Made by a program: the position numbers and the translations under genes
Source: Isoetes taiwanensis
Taxonomy: Eukaryota > Streptophyta > Lycopodiopsida > Isoetales > Isoetaceae
Direction: 5' to 3'
Assembly (NCBI GenBank): GCA_021234155.1
Contig: JAJEKV010000331.1
Coordinates: 186,001 to 250,000 of the forward strand
DNA length: 64,000 bases
Notes under the pieces: model-generated
The model's database searches: none
What the model saw: only the letters and a program-made list of their open reading frames with translations
Told to the model about the DNA's origin: nothing
Part shown: piece by piece, positions 18,686 to 52,319 of the stretch
Layout of the letters: each line of letters begins with the position of its first letter
Numbering within the stretch: position 1 is the first letter of the stretch

Positions 18686-19456
18686 TTAGTTACTGGGGAG
18701 CGCGTTGTTGATGGTTTTGATAAGGGTCTCTGCAGGCACTACAGTGATAGCCAATGCCTCAGCCATGCTGCTCACAAGCTTACTGATGATTTCATATTTG
18801 TAGGATCGCACTACGATGGACTGGTTGGGAGTTGGCATACTTTTACCAAGATCTGTGCGTGACATTTTGGCAATGCCATGGAATATGCAGAGTGCTGGGT
18901 TGCTTTCTGCACCTTCGAAGTGATACCCAACAAACATAGTCTGCGTCTCTTCTATGCTTGTCAAAGAAGAAGCTTGAATTAGGAGCTGCCTAATCACGAT
19001 GGTTGGATTCTGAATGCCACTTTCACCAACAAACGACTCAATCTCCTCTAACAATGCCTTACAGTCTCCTTTGCCAAAACTAAAATCTCGTTTGGCGGAG
19101 CTTACCAAAGGCATGTAGCTCCCAAAGCCTACCAGGGTGGAAAGTAGATCTGCAAACCCTTTGGCTTCCTTTGCAGGATCTCCAGTTGCATTGGGAGTAT
19201 AGTTGACGCTGGCCATGGCTGTGGCAAGAAATGTAGAAAGGACATCAGCATGAAGCTTTGGATTCTGAAACGTCTCCACGTTTGAAGGAGGAGGGGAAGC
19301 CTTTTCGGGCAAGTTGATAGCACTAGCTCGGCTAATGGCTTCGCCAATGCTAGTCGCCCCTGGAAGATCTTCTGTCTTGATCTTCTTGCTGCCTTCATAT
19401 TTCAACAATTCTAAGTTACGGCGAGCTTGCTCGGCAGTCAGAAGAAGAGGAGCCAT
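18686..19456 (-). CDS. Unrecognised 256-aa protein, intact single-exon ORF
   Basis: This is the longest convincing uninterrupted ORF outside repeats. It starts ATG (MAPLLLTAEQARRNLELL) and runs to TGA/TAG without a frame break. The composition is that of a soluble, mostly helical protein. A Pro-rich stretch (ASPPPSNVETFQN) near residues 53-65 separates a short N-terminal helix from a longer helical domain containing DLLSTLVGFGSY, RDFSFGKGDCKALLEEIESF and MFVGYHFEGAE. There is no signal peptide, membrane segment or metal motif. A decayed relative in the opposite orientation lies at about 21259-21480. I do not recognise the family. The size, single exon and domestic-looking helical content are compatible with a plant gene without introns or with a captured viral nucleocapsid or coat-like ORF. 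That second idea is speculation. Confidence 0.6.
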   Translation of the reverse strand: MAPLLLTAEQARRNLELLKYEGSKKIKTEDLPGATSIGEAISRASAINLPEKASPPPSNVETFQNPKLHADVLSTFLATAMASVNYTPNATGDPAKEAKGFADLLSTLVGFGSYMPLVSSAKRDFSFGKGDCKALLEEIESFVGESGIQNPTIVIRQLLIQASSLTSIEETQTMFVGYHFEGAESNPALCIFHGIAKMSRTDLGKSMPTPNQSIVVRSYKYEIISKLVSSMAEALAITVVPAETLIKTINNALPSN

Positions 19457-37130: not shown

Positions 37131-37490
37131 TTTAATGCGAAAACGTGGCCAAATGCAAGATGAATGTTTGCCTATATCAAATGAAAGGGCGCAATTTTGA
37201 TTGTGCGGTAAAAAAAATGCGCTTTGGAAATGTCGGAGGAACAAACAGATTTTCCAGGATTTTTTCCTTATGGCCTAGCGCCTCGCAGCCTCACTATCTT
37301 AAACAATGTTTAAGCAATGCACTGCAACACTAATAGTTCCATGTTTAAAGAAATTTAACGTAAACCAACCTTTAAACCCAAAAATCTAAATAACTCATTT
37401 CGAGTATTGTTCAAGTAAACAATCACATGGAATAATCACAAAAGATGAACAATCACATGTAAAGCCCGCCAACGGTGGGCAATTTACTAG

Positions 37491-37875: not shown

Positions 37876-39860
37876 GAGCCACCTTGGCATGTTGGAGCCC
37901 ACGTGGCATAATGGAGTCCATGCGGCATGTTTGAGCCACCTTGGCATGTTGGAGCCCACGTGGCATAATGGAGTCCATGCGGCATGTTTGAGCCACCTTG
38001 GCATGTTGGAGCCTAGGTGGTATGTTGGAGCCCACGTGTCATGTTTTAGCCACCTTGGCATGTTTGAGCCACCTTGTCATGTTGAGCCACCTTGTCATGT
38101 TTGAGCCACCTTGGCATGTTTGAGCCACCTTGGCATGCCACCTTTGAGCCACCTTGACATGTTTGAGCCACCTTGGCATATTTGAGCCTGGGTGGCATGT
38201 TGGTGCCTAGGGTGGCATGCCACGAGCCACCTTGGCATGTTGGAGCCTAGGTGGCATGTTGGAGCCCACATGGCATATATTGGATACCTTGGCATGTTTG
38301 ACTAGATGGCATGTTGGAGCCTAGATGGCATATTTGAGTCCCCTTGGCATGTTTGAGCCTAGGTGGCATGTTGGCAAAAAAGGTGGCATGTTTGAGCCAC
38401 CTTGGCATGTTGGAGCCTAGGTGGCATGTTTGAGCCACCTTGGCATGTTGGAGCCCACGTGGCATAATGGAGTCCATGTGGCATGTTTGAGCCACCTTGG
38501 CATGTTGGAGCCTAGGTGGTATGTTGGAGCCCACGTGGCATGTTTGAGCCACCTTGGCATGTTTGAGCCAACTTGTCATGTTGGAGCCTAGGTGGCATGT
38601 TTGAGCCACCTTGGCATGTTGGAGCCTAGGTGGCATGTTGGAGCCCACATGGCATGTTTGGGCTACCTTGGCATGTTTGACCCTAGGTGGCATGTTGGAG
38701 CCTAGATGGCATGTTTGAGTCCCCTTGGCATGTTTGAGCCTAGGTGGCATGTTGGAGCCTAGGTGGCATGTTGGAGCCCCAGCGTGGCATGTTGGAGCCT
38801 AGGTGGCACATTGGAGCCTAGATGGCATGTTGTAGCCCGCGTGGCATGTGTGAGCCACCTTGGCATGTTGGAGCCTAGGTGGCATGTTGGAGCCCGTGGC
38901 ATGTTTGAGCCACTTTGGTATGTTTTAGCCAAGGTGGCATGTTGGAGCCTAGATGGCATGTTTGAGCCACCTTGGCATGTTGGAGCCCGCGTGGTATGTT
39001 TCAGCCACCTTGGCATGTTTTATCCTAGGTGGCATATTGGAGCCTAAGTGGCATGCTTGGGCCACCTTGCATGTTGGAGCCTAGGTGGCATGTTGGAGCC
39101 ACGTGGCATGTTTGAGCCATCTTGCCATGTTTGAGCCACCTTGGCATGTTTATGCCACCTTGGCATGTTTGAGCCTAGGTGGCATGTTAGGAGCCAAGGT
39201 GGCATGTTAGAGCCCTAGGTGGCATGTTTGAGCCATGACGGCATGTTGGAGGCTAGGTGGCATGTTTGAGCCACCTTGTCATGTTTGAGCCTATGTGGCA
39301 TGTTGGAGCCTAGGTGGCATGTTGGAGCCTAGGTGGCATGTTTGAGCCACCTTGGCATGTTTGAGCCACCTTGGCATGTTGGAGCCTAGGTGGCATGTTG
39401 GAGACTACGTGGCAAGTTTGAGCCACCTTGGCATGTTAGAGCCTAGGTGGCATGTTGGAGCCCACGTGGCAGATTTGAGCCACCTTGGCAAGTTGGAGCA
39501 TAGGTGGCATGTTGGAGCCTACGTGGCATGTTTGAGCATGTTGGAGCCTAGGTGGCATGTTTGAGCCATTTTGTCATGTTGTTGGAGCCTAGGTGGCATG
39601 TTGGAATTAGTTGGCAGCCTAGTTGGCATGTTGGAGCCTACGTGGCATGTTGGAGCCTAGTTGGCATGTTGGAGCCACGTGGCATGTTGAAGGAGGTGGC
39701 ATGTTGGAGCCTAGGTGGCATTTTTGAGCCACCTTGGCATGTTTGATCCTAGGTGGCATGTTGGAGCCAACTTGGCATGTTGGAGCTCAATGGCATGTTG
39801 GAGCTCATGTGGCATGTTGGAGCCACGTTGGCATGTAGGAGCCCACGTGGCATGTTGGAC
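37876..39860. repeat. 19-bp minisatellite, about 100 units
   Basis: Nearly 2 kb of tandem units with a dominant 19-base period. Two main variants alternate: CCACCTTGGCATGTTTGAG and CCTAGGTGGCATGTTGGAG. Every unit keeps a GGCATG core. The beginning shows a higher-order unit of three variants (about 57-61 bases, with CATAATGGAGTCCATGCGG). Because 19 x 3 = 57, all frames stay open and give spurious repetitive peptides with a 19-residue period. Confidence 0.95.
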
Positions 39861-43400: not shown

Positions 43401-45305
43401 TCTTATATTATAATGTTATACCGTAAGTGTGTAGTGCATCGAGCCCTAATTTGAATAGCCGAGATCATATAGATGGATCCGAAGGCCTAGATTTATTGCA
43501 CGACTTACCAACACTGTGATTGGTCATGCTTGGATCTCTTAAGGGGAAAGGGTAAAATGAAAAGGGGAAAAGGAAAGGGAAGTGGAAAGAGAGAATGTGA
43601 AGGCAAAAAGGCATGGGGAAAAGGGAAAAGGGTAAAAGGAAAAGGGAAAAGGGTGGGGATAAGAGAAGAGAAAAAGGCATGGAAAACGAAAAAGGGAAAT
43701 GGAACCTGGAAAAAGGGCACGAGGAAAGGAGGAAGAGATAAAGTGGAAAAGGTAAAATGGAAAGGGCATGAAAAAAAAAAAAAGGAAAGAGGAAAAGGTT
43801 GAAAAAGGAGAAAATGAAGGAGAAAAAAAAAACCATGGAAAAAGGGGAGGAGAAAAAGCATGGGAAAAGGAAGGAGCATGGGAAAAGAGGGAAAAAGAGA
43901 AGCGTTGTGGAAAAGAGGAAAAACACATGGCATAGGAAAAGGAAAAAAAAAAAAAAAAAGATGGAAAGGGAAGGGAAGGGAAGAAACGCATCAAGAAAAG
44001 AGGAAGAGTGAAAGGTTGGAAAAATGAGGAAAAGGGAAGGGACAAGGGGGAACAAGAAAATGATGGGGAGAGGGGAAAAGAAAAGGGGCATAGAAAAAGG
44101 GCAAGTGAGAAGAAAGAAAAGGAAAGGGAAAAGGGGGAAAGGAAACCTAGGTAAAGGTCGCAAGGAAAAAGAAAGAGGGAAACGAAAAAAGGGAAGGGGG
44201 GAAGGGCATGAGAGAAAAGGGAAGAGGAAAATGGTGAAGAAAGGGAAAAAAGAAAAAAGGGAAAAGAAAAGGGGCAAGAGAGAAAGGGTGGGGAAAAGAG
44301 GAAAATGGGTATAGGAAATAAGAGAATAAAACAAATGTGCAAAAGGCATGGAAAAGGGAAAAGGAAAAGGAAAGGAAGGGAAAAAGTGCAAGAAAGTGAA
44401 AAGGATCGGCAAAGGAGAAAAAACGGAAAGAAAGGAAACGGGAAAAAAAGGGAAAGGGAAAGGGAAGGTGGGAGTGATGGAGGGGAGGGAAAGGGAAAAA
44501 GGACATGAGGAAAGGAAAAGAGAAAAAAAAAAGGAAGGGTTGAAAGAAGGGAAAATTGCACGGGAAGAGGGAAAGGGTGGGAAAAGGAGGAAAAGGAAGC
44601 ACGGAAAAATAGAAAGAAGAAAAGGGTGGGAAAAAGGGTATGGGAAAAGGGAAATAGAAAAAAAAAAAGAATGGAAAAGGGGGGGAAAGAGAGAGAGGCA
44701 GGGGAAAAAAGGAAATGAGGAAAATGGAAAATGAGAATGTAAAAGGGAACATGGAAAAGGGAAAATAGGGAAAGGGTGAGGAGATGGAAAAAAAAAAGAA
44801 AAAAGGGCATGGAAAACGGGAGGGAGAAAAGAAAAATGGAAGGGAAAAGGGCACACAAAAAAAGGAGGAAAAGATTGGGAAAAGGAGGAAAAGAGAAGGG
44901 AAAATAGGCATGGAAAAAGGGCTTAAAGAGTAAAAAGGTTGAGAAAAAAAGGAAGACATGGAAAAAGGGTGGGGAAAAGAGAAGGCATAAAAAAAGAGAA
45001 AGGGAAGGAAAAGGGCAAAGGAAAAAGAGAAGAGGGAAAAGGTGGAGAAAGGAGCAAAAGGGAAGGGAAAAAGGTTATCGGGAACAGGGAAGGGGGAAGG
45101 AAAGGGATGGGAAAACAAGGAAACATGTGAGAAAGACGAGAAAAAGAAGGAAAAGGAAAAAAAAGTAGAGAAAATAAGAAAAAATGAAATGCGGGATAGA
45201 GCAAAAGGGAAAGGGAAAGGGATAGGGATAGGGCTTTTCTCACTGCATCCCAAAGCATTTACAGGCTCTCAACTTATGCCCAGCAACGCTGGGCACCATT
45301 ACTAG
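43401..45305 (+). mobile_element. Purine-rich Helitron B2
   Basis: Begins TCTTATATTATAATGTTATA after A (43400). Ends with hairpin GCCCAGC-AAC-GCTGGGC, ACCATTA, CTAG at 45302-45305, then T. After about 140 bases of ordinary sequence, 43545-45230 is almost all A and G on the plus strand (runs like GGGAAAAGG), punctuated by GGCATGG and short T/C interruptions. There is no coding content: the long K/E/R/G frames and the complementary F/L/S/P frames (up to 463 codons) are products of composition. Confidence 0.8.
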
Positions 45306-45465
45306 TTGAATATTATTGATTTTCTTTTGTTGCATTCCACGGGGGATTACCCGGTTGATTCTTAGGTCAGAGAATCCCTGCTTTGTTGATACGTAAAGGT
45401 TTCCACATTCAACCCATTTTTCATTTTCATCTTCATCTATTTATTCATGTAGTAATTCTGTTGTG

Positions 45466-46165
45466 TAGATATTCGGGTTGTTCCAACGTACTAAATATTG
45501 ATTTGACAGCAAAAGATAAACTCATTGTCTTGGATTTAAATGGTGTGTTGGTAAAAACTTTTGGTGCAAATGAACACATACGCTTGGAATCAAGATTGAC
45601 AATGACATACACTAGCAGAAAGAAAGTGATATTCAGACCGTGATGTTGTTCTTCCCCAAGACTTTGTTCTGGTATGTTGTGTTGGTATCGGTCATCAATG
45701 CAACTCTCTAATGTGGAAGATGTGCTGCAAGTACTATGTCCAGATTTGAGGGACAAATTTCTATTTGTATGGGGACAAGAAAAATGTGTGAAGACCAGTT
45801 TTTCCCACCCTGACAAACATGGATGTCCAGTCATGATGAAGCCACTTGAGAAAATATATGAGTCATACCCAAGATTCAAAGGTATTAAGACTTTGCTTCT
45901 TGATGATTCATTATACAAGTCTTACCTTAGCAGCCCCTGGAAACTTCTGCTAGTACCTGCATTCAAGATGGATGTCTGTGATGAAGTGCTAACAGTACTC
46001 ACCCCAAAGATAGAAGGAATACCGCAGCCAAGGCGAGGAAAAAATGAAGTTACTGGTGAAGAACACACACAATTGCATGCCCCGCCTATGACGGATAGAA
46101 AAGATTATGAAGTTATGCTTGGAAAGACTTTTCGAAAAAACAATTGCACTTGTGCACCCTTGTGA
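45466..46165 (+). pseudogene. FCP1-like phosphatase fragment, second copy
   Basis: Around 45510-45560 the frame reads KDKLIVLDLNGVLV, HAD motif I in its plant FCP1-like form. After a frame break, 45674-46165 gives DVLQVLCPDLRDKFLFVWGQ, EKCVKTSF, EKIYESYPRFKGIKTLLLDD and SLYKSYL, so motif III/IV (LLLDDS.YK) is kept while the WS motif region is lost. The tail (LTPKIEGIPQPRRGKN) is not known. It is related to 9555-10289 but diverged. It occupies the 1-kb gap between two Helitron 3' ends of opposite orientation (45305 and 46312). Confidence 0.75.
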
Positions 46166-46311
46166 ATGAGGAATTGAAGAAAGTTTATGGTGATGAAGAT
46201 TGTTATCCTCCATTACTGTGATTAAGCCTGAGACATTTATGATTATTGGCCTGATTGTCATTTATTTAGGCCAAGGAATCCTACACTTTTCATGTACATC
46301 TTTATCTTATA

Positions 46312-47803
46312 CTAGTATTGGTGCCCAGCATTGCTGGGCATAAATTAGGAATCTGTGCGGACAAAAACCTATTCATTCTACAATTTTTTCATTCTCTTTT
46401 TTTTTTTTCTTTTTTTAATCCCCTTGTTCCTCCCTTTACCTTCCCTTTCCCCTTCCCCTTTTTCCCTTTTTCGCTTTTTCTCCGATGCTTTTTTTTCCTT
46501 TCTTTTTTTATCCTTCCCCAGCTCTTTTCTATTTTTCCCTTCCTTTTCATTTTCCTATTCTTTTCTCTTTCCCGCTTTCCCATGCATTTTTTTTCGTTCT
46601 CTTTTGCTCACCTTTTTTTATGTGTTTTTCTTCCTTTCCCCACCCTCTTCCTCTTGATCACGTGCCTTTTTTCCATCTCTTTTCCCATTTCCCTCTCCCC
46701 TTTTCCTCGTGCCCTTTTTCAACTTTTACATTCCCTTTTTGCTTCCCTTGTCCTTTCAACTTTACATTCCCTTTTCATCCTTTCCCCACCCTTTCGCTTT
46801 TCCCCATGCCCTTTTTCCCTTTCCTTTCCCTTCCCGCTTCCTTTTAATTTTCTCTTTCCCTTTCCCTTTTCATATGCCTCTTTCTATTCCCTTTTCTCAA
46901 CTTTTTTTATGTGCCTCTTTTCCTTCTTTCCCCATCCTCCTCCCCCTTTTTGCCCTCAGCAAAAAACATCAGCAATTACTGAGCCCTCATTAGTCATTAT
47001 CTCCGTTTATCTAGTATCATCATTACTACAAAGGTTTTTCCCTTGAAAACCTTTCGAGGCAGGGGTTTTTTAATCCTAGTAGTAATGATTGTACTAGCCC
47101 ATTGTATGGGTCCCATGACCTATTGGTCTCCGTGGACGTTAAAAAAGCTATTCTATTCTATTCTATTCTTTTTGCTTCCCTTTTCCTCTTTCTTCACCCT
47201 TTCTCTCTTCCCGTTTTTTCCACGCCCTTTCCATTTTCCCCTTTTCCTCGTGCCCTTTTCCCAGATTCTCTTTTGCCCTTTCCGCCCTCTCTTTTTCTTT
47301 TTCCTTTCCATTTCACTTTTCCCATGCGTTTTATTTGTCCCCTTCTTCCCACCTTTTCTTATTTTCCCTTAACTTTTTCTCCTTTTCCCACCTTACTTTC
47401 TTACCTTTTTCCGGTGCCCTTTTACCTCTCCTTTTCTGTCCCCTTTTCTATTTCCTTTTCCTTTCCTTTTCCTATCTTTCCTTTTTCATCCTTTCTAATT
47501 CCTTTTTTCGTCCTTCCTAGTTTTTATTTTTTTTTCCTTTCCTTCTTTTCACTTCATTTCTTTTTTCACTTTTTACCCTTTTTACCTTTTTTTCCTCTTT
47601 CCTTTTTTTTTTTCCCTTTTCCCTCTTCCTTTTTTTTTTTTTCCTTTTCCATTTTTTTTCTTGTTTTTGTTTCCCTTTATCTTTATTTCCCTCTTCCATT
47701 TTCCCTTCCCCTTTTCCTTTTTCCTTTTCCCATTTCCCTTTTCCCATTTCCCTTTTTGACTCATCGGATTGAGTGAATTTTGGCCATCGGTCATTTTATC
47801 TTC
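46312..47803 (-). mobile_element. Purine-rich Helitron B3, minus strand
   Basis: On the minus strand the 3' end reads hairpin GCCCAGC-AAT-GCTGGGC, ACCAATA, CTAG (46312-46315), then T. Moving inward, the plus strand is nearly pure pyrimidine (46390-46965, 47165-47760), so the element's own strand is purine, as in B2 and B4. A non-biased island at 46966-47160 contains a 71-base foldback with 11-base arms (ATCATTACTAC at 47019). About 47762-47803 is ordinary sequence resembling the 5' subterminal part. No clear TC terminus is visible, so the left limit is approximate and the 5' end may be lost. Confidence 0.6.
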
Positions 47804-48038
47804 CTTTTTTTTTCTCCTTTTCTCCTTTTTTTTTCCCCTTCCTTACCCTTTTTTGTTCCTTTTCCTTCTTCCCTTTTTTTGTTTTCTATTTTTCCTTTTC
47901 CATTTTTTATTTTTTCATATTCTTATTTCTCCTTTTCCCTTTTTCTTTTTTCCTTTTGTCCTTTCTCTCTCACTTTTCCTTTTCCTTCTCTCCTTTTCCC
48001 TTCCCCTTTTCCTTTTTCCCTTTTCCCTTTCATCCATC
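47804..48038 (-). repeat. Extra pyrimidine block meeting a purine block head to head
   Basis: About 230 bases of plus-strand pyrimidine run directly into the purine block starting at 48039, separated only by CATCCATCAAG. It is probably a leftover of a third purine unit in minus orientation. The junction can fold back on itself. Confidence 0.55.
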
Positions 48039-48904
48039 AAGAAAAGGAAACGGGAAAAAAGGGAAAGGGAAAGGGAAGCAGGGGAGTGATGGAGGGGAGG
48101 GAAAGGGAAAAAGGACATGAGAAAAGGAAAAGAGAGAAAAAAAAGGAAGGGTTGAAAGAAGGGAAAATTGCACGGGAAGAGGGAAAAGGTGGGAAAAGGA
48201 GGAAAAGGAAGCAAGGAAAAATAGAAAGAAGAAAAGGGTGGGAAAAGGGAAATAGAAAAGAAAAAAAAAGAATGGAAAAGGGGAAAAAGAGAGAGAGGCA
48301 GGGAAAAAAGGAAATGAGGAAAATGGAAAAGGGGAAGAGAAAAAGGGAACATGGAAAAGGGAAAGAGGGAAAGGGTGAGGAGATGGAAAAAGGGAAGGTA
48401 AAAAAGGGCATGGAAAGCAGGAGGGAGAAAAGAAAAAATGGAAGGGAAAAGGGCACACAAAAAAAGGAGGAAAAAGTGGGAAAAGGAGGGACAAGAGAAG
48501 GGAAAATAAGCATGGAAAAGGGTGAGAAAAAGAGTAAAAGGTTGAGAAAAAGGGAAGACATGAAAAAAGTTATTAGGGGAAAAGAGAAGGCATAAAAAGA
48601 GAAAGGGAAGGGAAAAGGGCAAAAAAAAAAGAGAAGAGGGAAAAGGGGAGAAAGGAGCAAAAGGGAAGGAAAAAGGGTTATCGGGAACAAGGAAAGGAGA
48701 AGGAAAGGGATGGGAAAACAAGGAAACATGTGAGAAAGACGAGAAAAAAAAAGGAAAAGAAAAAAAAAAGTAGAGAAAATAAGAAAAAATGAAATGCGGG
48801 ATAAAGCAAAAGGGAAAGGGAAAGGGATAGGGTGTTTCTCACTGCATCCCAAAGCATTTACAGGCTCTCAACTTATGCCCAGCAACGCTGGGCACCATTA
48901 CTAG
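48039..48904 (+). mobile_element. 5'-truncated copy of purine Helitron B2
   Basis: Matches 44428-45305 from AAGGAAACGGGAAAAAAGGG to the CTAG, including the hairpin GCCCAGC-AAC-GCTGGGC and ACCATTACTAG, with small insertions and deletions (866 versus 878 bases). The 5' half and TC terminus are absent. High similarity shows recent shared origin, by transposition with truncation or by segmental duplication. Confidence 0.8.
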
Positions 48905-49197
48905 TAACCCTTTAACTGTATAGTTAACTGTGGGATCCACGAGGGGATCCCCTGCCCAATCCAGGGTAAAAGGATCCCATGCTCCCAACGTATTTGTCAA
49001 TGGTATTTGAGACAACAATTATTATGTGTTACATTGAACTATGTATGATGGGCATTTCATAATTTCAATACTGCAATCAAGGCAACTTGCTTGAACATAT
49101 AAGTTTGTTGCATTCTATATTTGGCATGTATATTGTTATTCTGGCCTTATGTAACTGCCCCAAATTAAAACACACCCCAACATAATACAAACCCTTG

Positions 49198-49228
49198 CAT
49201 ATGCCCGGCAATGGGCACACGTTTCTAG
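49198..49228 (+). repeat. Family A Helitron 3' terminus of A2
   Basis: GCCCGGC-AATGGGC (a shortened hairpin compared with 5226-5242), then ACACGTTT and CTAG, followed by TATATTGAAC. This is the 3' boundary of A2. Confidence 0.7.
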
Positions 49229-50378
49229 TATATTGAACTTTGTGTCTATGAATCTTAAAAAGTTCCTCTATACTATCCTTGCCCCTCAAAAACAATGGTG
49301 GCTAACCTCTTCAAATTGTTACTAAAGCCCAAAGAACAACCAAAAGATACCAGCCCCGGTGTACATGGAAGCCAACTCACACAATTATTGTGGAGTTTAT
49401 CCTCACGCCGCTTTATGGCGCATAAAGTGAGTAGACAAAGTGGAGGACACGATAAGCACAAGTTCTACCACATCGGGATCATCATCGATAACCCCGCAGA
49501 ACCAACACCCAAAGTTAATATATACATCGCTGTGGTTGAACCCCCTACAAGTGCACATTTATTTTGGCATTACTAGGCCTATATCAACTCACCCACATCC
49601 GTTCGGGAAAACTTTAGCCATACATGCACACTTTGTAGGCAGATAGAATCCCGCCCTTCGTGAAGTCTAAAATTTTAGGTAACAACCAAAAAGATACCAG
49701 CCCCAAAGGTACATGGAAGCCAATTTTACCGTTCATACTACACAATTATTGTGGAGTTTATCCCCGGCCGGCTTTATGGCGTATAAAGTGGAGGACACGA
49801 TAGGCACAAGTTCTAATTTCACGCTAGATCATCATCAGATAACCCCCAAAGAACTAACACCCAAAGCTAAACATACACCGCCGTGGTTGAACCCCCGACC
49901 AAGTGCACCATCTCTCGCATACATATAAATGAACCATGTGAGCACATCTACACACCACACCAATATCAATAACGGTCCAAGCTAAACCCCAGGATGTATT
50001 TCGAACCACCTTCAAATTGTTATTAATGGTTAATTTGTTTTACTACCCTCCTTATTCCCATTTTCAAAATATCTTTCTAATAGTCTTCGGCCCTATATCA
50101 TTATCCTTAGGCGACATAGAGGACAAACTATCTGAAGCAATTATCAAGTAGATCCAGTATGAGTATTTGTACTTGGTCCAATATAGCATAATCATGTTTA
50201 AAAGTCCTAAATACCACACATATAAAATCCATATATTGAACTTTGTGTCTATGAATCTTAAAACGTTCCTCTATACTATCCTTGCCCCTCCAAACTATAT
50301 TGTCTATTCTAGCCAACAATGACAGAAGCACCTCTTCAAATTGTTACTAAGCCCAGCAACGCCAGGCACCATAACTAG
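49229..50378 (+). repeat. Repeat cluster ending in a family B Helitron 3' terminus
   Basis: 49229-49312 is the right half of the sequence split by A2. 49315-49560 and 49670-49910 are a diverged direct duplication (ACCAAAAGATACCAGCCCC, ACACAATTATTGTGGAGTTT). 49908-50310 is the uninterrupted relative of both A2 flanks. It ends in GCCCAGC-AAC-GCCAGGC, ACCATAA, CTAG (50375-50378), then T. The repeat family therefore looks like the 3' portion of another non-autonomous Helitron whose 5' end I could not place. Confidence 0.65.
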
Positions 50379-50439
50379 TGTTATTTAATTGGCAAAAGTC
50401 ATGAATACAAGTTTGGAGTAGGCACACATGGAATACATA

Positions 50440-52319
50440 TCTTATATTATAAAATTATACCGTTTGTCCGCCAGGAACGGGCCTTATATTATAAAATTAT
50501 ACCGTTTGTCCGTTGTGAACGGTGCCCTAGATCGGACGGTTGAGGATTTGATCGATCCATGATGAAGATCGCATGTGCGTGTTTGCAACCAAAAATTCAT
50601 CTTGATCGTTGTTTCCAATATGACTCGCCTAATCCGGCAACAAATGGTGAAAGGAAAAAGGGAAAAGGGAAATCCGGAGGGAGAAAATAAAAGAAATGAA
50701 AAAAGAGGGAAACCGAGAAAAAGAGAAGGGAGGAGGCAAGAGGAAAGAGAGAATGGGAAAACTCACGTTGGGGAAGGGATTGTGGGGCGAGGGAAAAGGT
50801 AGCGGGAAAAGAAAGGGAAAGGGGAGAGAAGAAAGGATACCGAAAGGGGAAAAAGGAAAGGGGGGAAAAGGTATAAAAGGAAAGGGAAAGCGAAAAAAGA
50901 AAAAGAGAGGGGAAACGGGAAAAGCAAAGGGAAAAATGGCATGGGAAAAGAGGGAAGAGAAAAGGAGGAAAAGAGAAGCTTTTAAAAAGGAAGAGAGAGA
51001 GGAGGAGGAAAGGAGAAAAGGGAAAGGGAAAAGAACAAAGGAAGGAGGAAAGGGAAGGAAAAAGGCTACAAGGAAATGGGAAGAGAGAAAGGGAAGGAAG
51101 AAAGGGCATTGTAAAAAGGGAAAGAGAAATAAAGGGAAGGGAAAAAAGGACATGAGAAAAAAGAAGGGGAAACAGAAAAGAAAAATGAAGTGGAAGAGCG
51201 GGAAATGGAAAGGAAAAAGGGCACGAGAAAAAGCGAAAAAAAGAAGGGTCGAGAGAGGAGGAAAAGGGAAGGGAAAAAGGCCATTGGTAAAAAAGAAAGG
51301 AAAAGGAAAAGGGGAAGGGGGAAATGGAAGCGAAGGGAATGGGATGGGAGAAAAGGAACATAGAAAAAGGAAAAAGGAAAAAGGGAATGTGAAAAGGGGA
51401 GGGAAAAAAGGGAAGGAGGAGATAGAAAAAGGGAAAAGCGAGGAGAGGGAAAATGAAAAAGGAAAATGTGAAAAAAAGGGAGAAAGTAAAAGGAAAAAAA
51501 AGAGGGATAAAATGAGAAAATAGAAAGGGGATGGAAACGAAAAAGAAGAGCAAAATAGAAAAGGGAAGCGCGGAGTAAAGGAAAAAGGGAAAAGGAGGGG
51601 GGGAGAGGGAAGGGAGGGGAGGGGAAAAGGTGAAGAAAGGGGAAAAGAGGAGCGGAAAAAAACATGGGAATATAGAAGAGAAAAGAGGCATGAAAAAAAA
51701 GGGAAGAGGGAAAGGGTGAGGGAAGGAAAAATAGACATGAAAAAAGGGAAAGAGGGAAAAGAAAAAGGGAGGGGGAAAGGGAAGGGAAAAAGGGCAGTAA
51801 AAAAGGGGAAGACGGAAGGGCTGGGGAAAGGAGGAAAAGGGAAGGAAGAAAGGGGAAAAAGAAAAGGTGGGCAGAAGGAAAGGGAAAAGGGGAAAAGAAA
51901 ACTTATAAAAAAGGGCGCGAGGAAAAAGGGAAGGGGAAAATGGGAAAAGGGAAGGGGGAAAGAACACGAGGAAAGGGAGAAAGGGCAAACACAAATTGGA
52001 GAAAAGGGAAAGGAAAAATAGAGAAGGAGAAATGGGGAAGCGGAATAGAGAAAAGGGAAATGGGGGAAATAGATTAGTCGAAAAAAAAGGGTAAGTTGGA
52101 AAACGTAAAAAGGGAAAAGCGACAAGGGACAAGGGGAAAATAGAAAAAAGGAAAAGTAGAGAAAGACAAAAGGACAAGGGAAAAGGTAAGGGGAAGTGGA
52201 AAATATGGTCGAATGCTCTTGATTATCTAATTTTAAAAACGTGAATCCATTTAACAATTGCTCCAGTATATCATTTACAGTTGCTAGCTATGCCCAGCAA
52301 CGCTGGGCACCTTAACTAG
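50440..52319 (+). mobile_element. Purine-rich Helitron B4
   Basis: Begins TCTTATATTATAAAATTATA after A (50439). A 42-base tandem repeat of the terminus follows (second copy from about 50483). Ends with GCCCAGC-AAC-GCTGGGC, ACCTTAA, CTAG at 52316-52319, then T. 50650-52195 is almost entirely purine on the plus strand with GGCATGG/GACATGA interruptions. The 5' subterminal GCCCTAGATCGGACGG links it to B1. Open frames as long as 542 codons (minus, F/P/S/L-rich) and 275 codons (plus, K/E/G/R-rich) are compositional. Confidence 0.82.

Follow-up and report, generated by a model that had tools for sequence, protein, structure and literature searches.

What is a kilobase of nearly uninterrupted purine doing between the ends of a transposon? 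The question is raised by a 64,000-nucleotide stretch of the Isoetes taiwanensis genome (contig JAJEKV010000331.1, positions 186,001 to 250,000; hereafter the window, with positions counted from its first letter), in which an initial annotation, made from the letters alone, had described Helitrons with polypurine bodies. We confirm that observation. The purine tract is part of the Helitron and transposes with its head and tail, and we give a probability of about 0.82 to the overall reading that these are non-autonomous Helitrons whose purine body is inherited and moved as part of the element. They consist of a head of 36-172 bp (in the subfamilies measured), a body of mostly 1.3-1.7 kb and a tail of 72-147 bp bearing the terminator hairpin.

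Two elements of the window, B2 (43401-45305) and B4 (50440-52319), are complete Helitrons, with a 5' TC, a 17-nt hairpin, a 3' CTAG and an insertion between A and T, and in this they bear out the ordinary ends claimed for them. In B2 the hairpin GCCCAGCAACGCTGGGC is followed by 11 nt up to and including the CTAG. Their bodies had been called almost pure A/G; the purine blocks are real, but about 90% is the better figure (0.898 and 0.907). The same termini recur in the 1.66-Gb genome, whose plant nature is borne out by 66 matches to the chlorophyll a/b-binding domain, all 96 candidates having been scored. Among the head-anchored loci described below and the window, counting the overlap of loci L056 and L057 once, 59 of 66 purine-associated 5' ends have A before them, the rest following G (four) or T (three), and 52 of 53 purine-associated 3' ends have T as the next base. 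The former were found with TCTTATATTATAA, one mismatch being allowed and TC itself being part of the query, and the latter with the hairpin GCCCAGCAACGCTGGGC (three mismatches allowed) together with CTAG. The canonical Helitron, as defined by its ends, palindrome and A-T target in an excerpt of PMC4067079, is matched in these three respects: the 5' end is TC in B2, B4 and the 66 purine-associated 5' ends, the 3' end is CTRR, preceded at about 11 nt by a palindrome of 16-20 nt, and insertion is between A and T without target-site duplication, not into the T-rich (TT) target of the Helentron/DINE-1 type. The elements are non-autonomous, that is, protein-less, Helitrons.

The evidence that the tract belongs to the element comes from its copies. 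First-look candidates numbered 1252 for the B2 head, 338 for the B4 head, 1053 for the B2 tail and 537 for the tail of B3, a minus-strand element of the window; 40 of each were scored. The best 40 of the 1252 held 39 B2-head places besides B2, at 96-97% identity, which were fetched as 38 A-type loci (L009-L046), and 20 B-type loci (L047-L066) were fetched from 40 rows besides B4 itself; L001-L008 were left out of the analysis. In all 58 head-anchored loci the purine block starts where the head ends (in L049 after a second, partial head), the shortest first blocks (166 bp in L031, 210 bp in L019 and 244 bp in L066) lying in interrupted or degraded copies. Approached from the other side, the 200 bp upstream of the tail have a purine fraction of 0.87-0.915 in five of five tail-anchored loci, a sample of four of the 40 B2-tail places and one of the 40 B3-tail places; the 40 places listed for the B2-tail query (45236-45305), all at 100%, include B2 itself and a truncated copy of the window. 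Moreover, two nested insertions disclose the empty site. In L020 an element of subfamily E (1,715 bp, with a purine body) sits in an A body, and the flanks, when joined, equal the A majority at 60 of 60 positions; in L029 an element of subfamily C is nested likewise, and the joined flanks match at 57 of 60. Both insertions lie between A and T with no target duplication. Because of the 58 and five loci and these two empty sites, we conclude that head, body and tail move as one unit, and the earlier claim that the tract is carried by Helitron termini stands.

Two arrangements of copies deserve mention in their own right. In L039 (1-5468 in element orientation; contig C908, about 6.85-6.86 Mb) at least four B2-type copies form a tandem array, the first cut by the end of the locus, with three identical 44-bp spacers; three of the units are 98-99% identical to one another and 96-97% identical to three other copies. 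The array could be a rolling-circle concatemer that includes a piece of flank, or a later tandem duplication. At about 290-310 of L053, two B-type elements are joined head-to-tail directly, CTAG to TC, with no spacer. As judged from their sequence, both would be compatible with rolling-circle copying of one strand.

Within a subfamily, the body is inherited in order. We aligned only copies whose tail lies 1.5-2.4 kb into the locus (21 of subfamily A including B2, and 13 of subfamily B including B4), which excludes copies of unusual length such as L035; the A set includes L038, which is 16% diverged and may belong to another subfamily. The A bodies are colinear, and pairwise identity among 12 A copies is 0.939 in the body, 0.951 in the tail and 0.988 in the head, the last value being inflated by the search. 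Measured against the majority sequence, the 21 A copies show 4.0% substitutions in the body and 2.2% in the tail, with 7.95 and 3.3 indels per kb, and the 13 B copies 6.4% and 3.3%, with 8.5 and 0.7 indels per kb; hence, the body changes faster than the tail in both ways. The commonest indels in both subfamilies are of 1 bp (60 insertions and 58 deletions in A; 21 and 43 in B).

The initial annotation had further seen in the body an internally expanding repeat. This holds for L035, an A copy in which about 0.78 kb of the body is tandemly triplicated, with A-run microhomology at the joints, and for subfamily B, in which an internal repeat of 126 bp scores above shuffles (279 versus at most 172). 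It does not hold for the copies as a whole. Summed over the 21 A copies, length falls 2,542 bases short of 21 times the majority, and the 13 B copies fall short by 382 in the same way; most copies now present have thus received a fixed body and are losing sequence. L035 is 1,527 bases longer, yet adding it still leaves A net shorter, and, judged by block length, no other of the 38 A loci shows the like; large tandem growth is rare. The purine tracts are rich in short tandem repeats. A strong higher-order periodicity of the A body was considered and rejected, as its 266-bp period scores 711 and shuffles reach 828 and 1111. The GGCATGG word said to recur in the bodies does so in the A majority body, where it occurs six times against 0.23 in dinucleotide shuffles (maximum 2), and CAT 20 times against 2.9 (maximum 8); in subfamily B, with two occurrences against 0.15, it stays within the shuffle range (maximum 3).

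At least five subfamilies, defined by their heads and tails, share the build of head, polypurine body and tail: A (B2), B (B4), C (nested in L029 and beside a B copy in L047), D (L043) and E (L020, L051 and L061), B3 being E-like in that its body scores 848 against the E element of L020 (null maximum 365). The purine fraction is 0.888-0.915 across eight bodies, and in every block read the purine strand is the sense strand that runs from the 5' TC to CTAG. The fetched flanks contain 22 further purine blocks of more than 150 bp, all 22 with purine on the sense strand. Inspection by eye assigns 15 to other elements, five to continuations of an interrupted main copy and two to the main copies of L056 and L057. 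Twenty of them adjoin a head or tail and two lie inside interrupted elements.

Whether these bodies go back to one ancestor is less plain, and it is here that the first of the rival explanations arises, namely that purine microsatellites expanded into bodies on several separate occasions, in different lineages of Helitrons. The A and C heads share 79-81% of 136 aligned bases, and the A and C bodies are nearly unalignable (496 and 552; null maxima 502 and 475), scoring below all 20 simulations at 20% (minimum 715) and at 25% divergence (minimum 576), an outcome that is indicative given that the simulations used the within-A substitution spectrum and single C copies. The A-B and A-C47 pairs, like some other pairs, do not rise above a third-order null (499 versus 505 and 496 versus 502). 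Against repeated origins, the E body exceeds the null with C (720 versus 550) and A (599 versus 527), and barely with B (535 versus 521). In addition, when eight pairs of bodies are compared quarter by quarter, six of 128 cells exceed z 4: three for E61-F along the diagonal (+14.0, +8.0 and +10.5), and one each for D-F (+8.6), C-E (+7.1) and A-D (+7.9). The B2 and B4 bodies also exceed a dinucleotide null (423 versus 306 at most). These ordered patches speak for a common descent of several bodies, and we consider independent origins unlikely; nevertheless, a single origin of all bodies is only partly shown, given the A-B and A-C47 pairs. The tails add to the picture: those of A and C are unrelated outside the hairpin, those of C and D are related (30 versus null maxima of 23 and 27), and those of C and F lie at the edge (23 and 22 versus null maxima of 22 and 21). 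As the A and C heads are similar and their bodies and tails are not, exchange or rebuilding seems to proceed more quickly in body and tail than in the head. We also observed, by eye, a chimera at about 2640-2880 of L061, where the tail of a B-type element runs into the head of an E-type one through a short GCCC common to both; the joint sits between two purine bodies.

A second rival would have the purine itself selected in the source elements, either because a structure-free, terminator-poor displaced strand is copied more efficiently or because silencing is weakened by the scarcity of CG and CHG sites. The properties concerned are pronounced. Per 150 nt of sense strand, the folding energy with DNA parameters is close to zero (-0.64 kcal/mol in A and -0.21 in B, against -12.5 in 12 kb of background). 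The CTRR terminator occurs 1.2 and 2.6 times per kb in bodies against 11.6 and 12.0 in background, a depletion of about 5-10 fold; CHG, at 2.4-8.4 per kb by body and strand against 25.0-25.6, is about 3-10 fold lower; and CG, at 8.4-9.5 against 18.5, is about half, while CHH on the pyrimidine strand is over twice background. The purine fraction, too, has kept to its narrow range in eight bodies despite their diverged sequences. However, all such properties follow from being polypurine, and the constancy needs no selection. Relative to the A majority, purines have changed to pyrimidines at 0.82% and the reverse at 3.1% (a rate possibly inflated by misalignment), which implies an equilibrium of 0.79; 19 of 21 A copies lie below the majority purine fraction of 0.903 (0.8935-0.9017), with L030 (0.904) and the diverged L038 (0.921) above it. 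Present substitutions thus slowly erode the purine content, and the cause of its persistence is unproven. Purine constancy was dismissed as proof of selection, for simulated drift to 20% pair divergence alone leaves 0.88. Selection at the source is therefore rather improbable in our estimate. We regard as about equally doubtful the elaboration in which the body is an adapted stuffer. It would keep hairpins and false CTRR terminators out of the displaced strand and leave that strand few CG and CHG methylation sites, and rolling-circle copying would renew it through tandem duplications and exchange among subfamilies, such that composition is kept while order turns over. The same composition brings about 3 quadruplex motifs per kb (0.0-0.02 in background) and 1.9-3.0 purine or pyrimidine mirror repeats per kb (0.07 in background); the triplexes suggested in the initial annotation accordingly stand as a potential of the sequence.

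The ordinary Helitrons of the genome bear on a third rival, in which the tract is an independent satellite or microsatellite and Helitrons inserted repeatedly beside or into it. The abundance of short tandem repeats in the tracts would suit such a satellite, and so would generic Helitron ends that lack purine. Such 3' ends number 9 of 62, two with less than 250 bp of upstream sequence and seven with at least 345 bp, and such 5' ends 7 of 75, including one of B2 type with a degraded body in L031 and one in L066 with 139 bp downstream; the L056/L057 overlap is counted twice in both totals. What we find is that subfamily-specific heads and tails stand with purine wherever examined, and that it is the short generic ends which also occur on ordinary Helitrons. 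The block is present in every head-anchored locus, and the remainder of the window (54.2 kb, both strands) holds no 200-bp stretch of at least 0.85 purine in any of 256 windows of 840 bp (maximum 0.79); at the block threshold there is one stretch outside these elements, a 74-bp pyrimidine run. Since removal of the whole element, body included, restores an empty site in L020 and L029, the independent satellite is rejected, and we put its probability very low. Lowest of all is that of a captured low-complexity coding sequence rich in K, E, R and G as cargo: open frames of 199-542 aa do cross the bodies, but they are expected in a tract of one base class, as stop codons mix T with purines, and the rival is rejected because 1-bp indels are the commonest class in both subfamilies, a verdict drawn from the copies and from no protein-database search for a matching gene, in agreement with the earlier view that the body is not captured gene sequence.

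The generic ends also hint at ancestry. In the fetched flanks, heads related to A stand on ordinary bodies in L038 (61 bp, 84%), L062 (44 bp, 89%) and L066 (61 bp, 80%), and a B-related head (52 bp, 83%) does so in L065; one such ordinary head alone has 1219 first-look candidates. By virtue of these related heads, the purine elements look like an offshoot, devoid of genes, of a Helitron group that is common in the genome. The genome is Helitron-rich: when the best 150 of 1813 candidates for the Helitron_like_N domain were scored, all 150 were above the cut-off, several in frames of more than 1000 aa. We propose that an ordinary Helitron of this genome, its head still recognisable, may have lost its genes, and that the lineage would have gained a purine-rich minisatellite-like unit, of GGGAAAA-type runs with a GGCATGG or GGGCAC word, which would have grown by tandem duplication before the subfamilies split. 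A Rep/helicase made elsewhere in the genome might recognise head and tail in trans and copy whatever lies between them; the body could be tolerated inasmuch as the displaced strand hardly folds and offers few CTRR terminators, and its purine content may be kept up by the copying of source elements, without selection acting on the individual copies.

Several points weigh against this reading. The head-anchored copies were picked for good head matches, and the evidence for joint movement comes from one genome, not from differences between individuals. The low folding and scarcity of terminators, being consequences of polypurine composition, show no benefit, and the A-B and A-C47 bodies sit at their null. 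By eye, none of 41 ordinary-head rows lies within 10 kb of the 150 Helitron_like_N places, a comparison that covers 41 rows of 1219 head candidates and 150 of 1813 domain candidates. One B3-type tail, C23:225074, shares its strand with a Helitron_like_N domain 434 bp away, which lies downstream of the element's 3' end and thus not inside it. Overall, the interpretation offered in the initial annotation is partly supported.

Polypurine Helitrons of the window and their parts (strand relative to the window)
Feature	Position	Strand	Remarks
B2 head	43401..43540	+	5' end TC, preceded by A
B2 polypurine body	43541..45233	+	1,693 bp, 0.898 purine
B2 tail	45234..45305	+	hairpin GCCCAGC-AAC-GCTGGGC at 45278-45294, 11 nt to 3' end CTAG, next base T
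B3 (subfamily E)	46312..47800	-	tail, body and remnant of head
B3 tail	46312-46383	-	inner boundary by eye
B3 purine body	46384-47756	-	purine on minus strand; inner boundaries by eye
Non-purine insert in B3 body	46958..47150		193 bp; ends in TTCTA-type repeat
B3 head remnant	47757-47800	-	5' end cut; boundaries by eye
Further purine-body fragment	47801..48031	-	purine on minus strand; weakly E-like (174 versus null maximum 155)
Truncated B2-type copy	48032..48904	+	5'-truncated, 3' part of body and tail; start 48032 by eye
B4 head	50440..50648	+	5' end partly doubled: 50440-50481, then 50482 on (by eye)
B4 polypurine body	50649..52203	+	1,555 bp, 0.907 purine
B4 tail	52204..52319	+	hairpin and CTAG; next base T

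Two extents given earlier are revised here. B3 is indeed a minus-strand element, but it ends near 47800 in its head remnant, and the purine beyond, 47801-48031, is a separate fragment; the plus strand is 0.889 pyrimidine in block 46384-46957 and 0.901 in block 47151-48031. The truncated copy reported at 48039-48904 is real, but by eye it starts near 48032; its purine block (48039-48832) is 0.911 purine, and 48039-48904 aligns to 1028-1905 of B2 with 812 of 849 aligned bases identical and 46 gap positions. The insert in the B3 body ends in TTCTATTCTATTC and by eye resembles the 3' end of a long or short interspersed element (LINE or SINE). Searches of the window features tested against Rfam, NCBIfam and PDB sequences gave no matches, and Pfam a single RING match under the cut-off.

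Other features of the window lie apart from these elements. At about 49180-50378 there are other Helitron-like 3' ends without purine bodies, one ending at 50378, and a segment seen by eye at about 49340-49500 recurs at about 49680-49850. Another kind of Helitron-like 3' end, GCCCGCCAACGGTGGGC followed by CTAG and T, is visible by eye at 37464-37490; after it, at about 37900-39860, comes a GC-rich minisatellite (by eye) whose core is GGCATGTT(G)GAGCC. An open frame of 256 aa at 18686-19456 on the minus strand has no Pfam, NCBIfam or PDB-sequence match.

These elements constitute a many-copy natural set of Helitrons in which the transferred strand is predicted to form almost no secondary structure, and they make testable how Helitron ends are found (hairpin plus CTRR) and whether internal sequence is tolerated or needed. 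They also represent a transposon that spreads through a plant genome purine:pyrimidine tracts of kilobase length, which have the potential for mirror repeats and G-quadruplexes. The earlier statement that no Helitron family with such a body had been described agrees with our literature search, which covered titles and the beginnings of abstracts, repeat libraries being outside its scope, and found no Helitron with a polypurine body.

Among known systems, the canonical non-autonomous Helitrons of plants share the TC and CTAG ends, the 17-nt hairpin 11 nt from the end and insertion between A and T without duplication, and differ in that the body here is a kilobase-long polypurine tract. Other plant Helitrons carry deleted Helitron genes or captured pieces of genes. 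Elements of the DINE-1/Helentron type are likewise non-autonomous rolling-circle elements that carry repeats, some copies having microsatellites or tandem repeats that sometimes make up about half their length; however, the same excerpt of PMC4067079 gives them subterminal inverted repeats and a T-rich target, whereas the elements described here have canonical Helitron ends and a body with purine on one strand, head to tail. The ISX/ISXR Helitrons of Drosophila, from what is given in part of PMC4384637, contain GA-rich recognition motifs that are bound by a chromatin complex; the purine body here is of kilobase scale. Finally, certain lepidopteran Helitron-like elements are, by the title of their report, tied to a purine repeat, (GAAA)n microsatellites, which they disrupt, whereas in Isoetes the purine tract lies inside the element.

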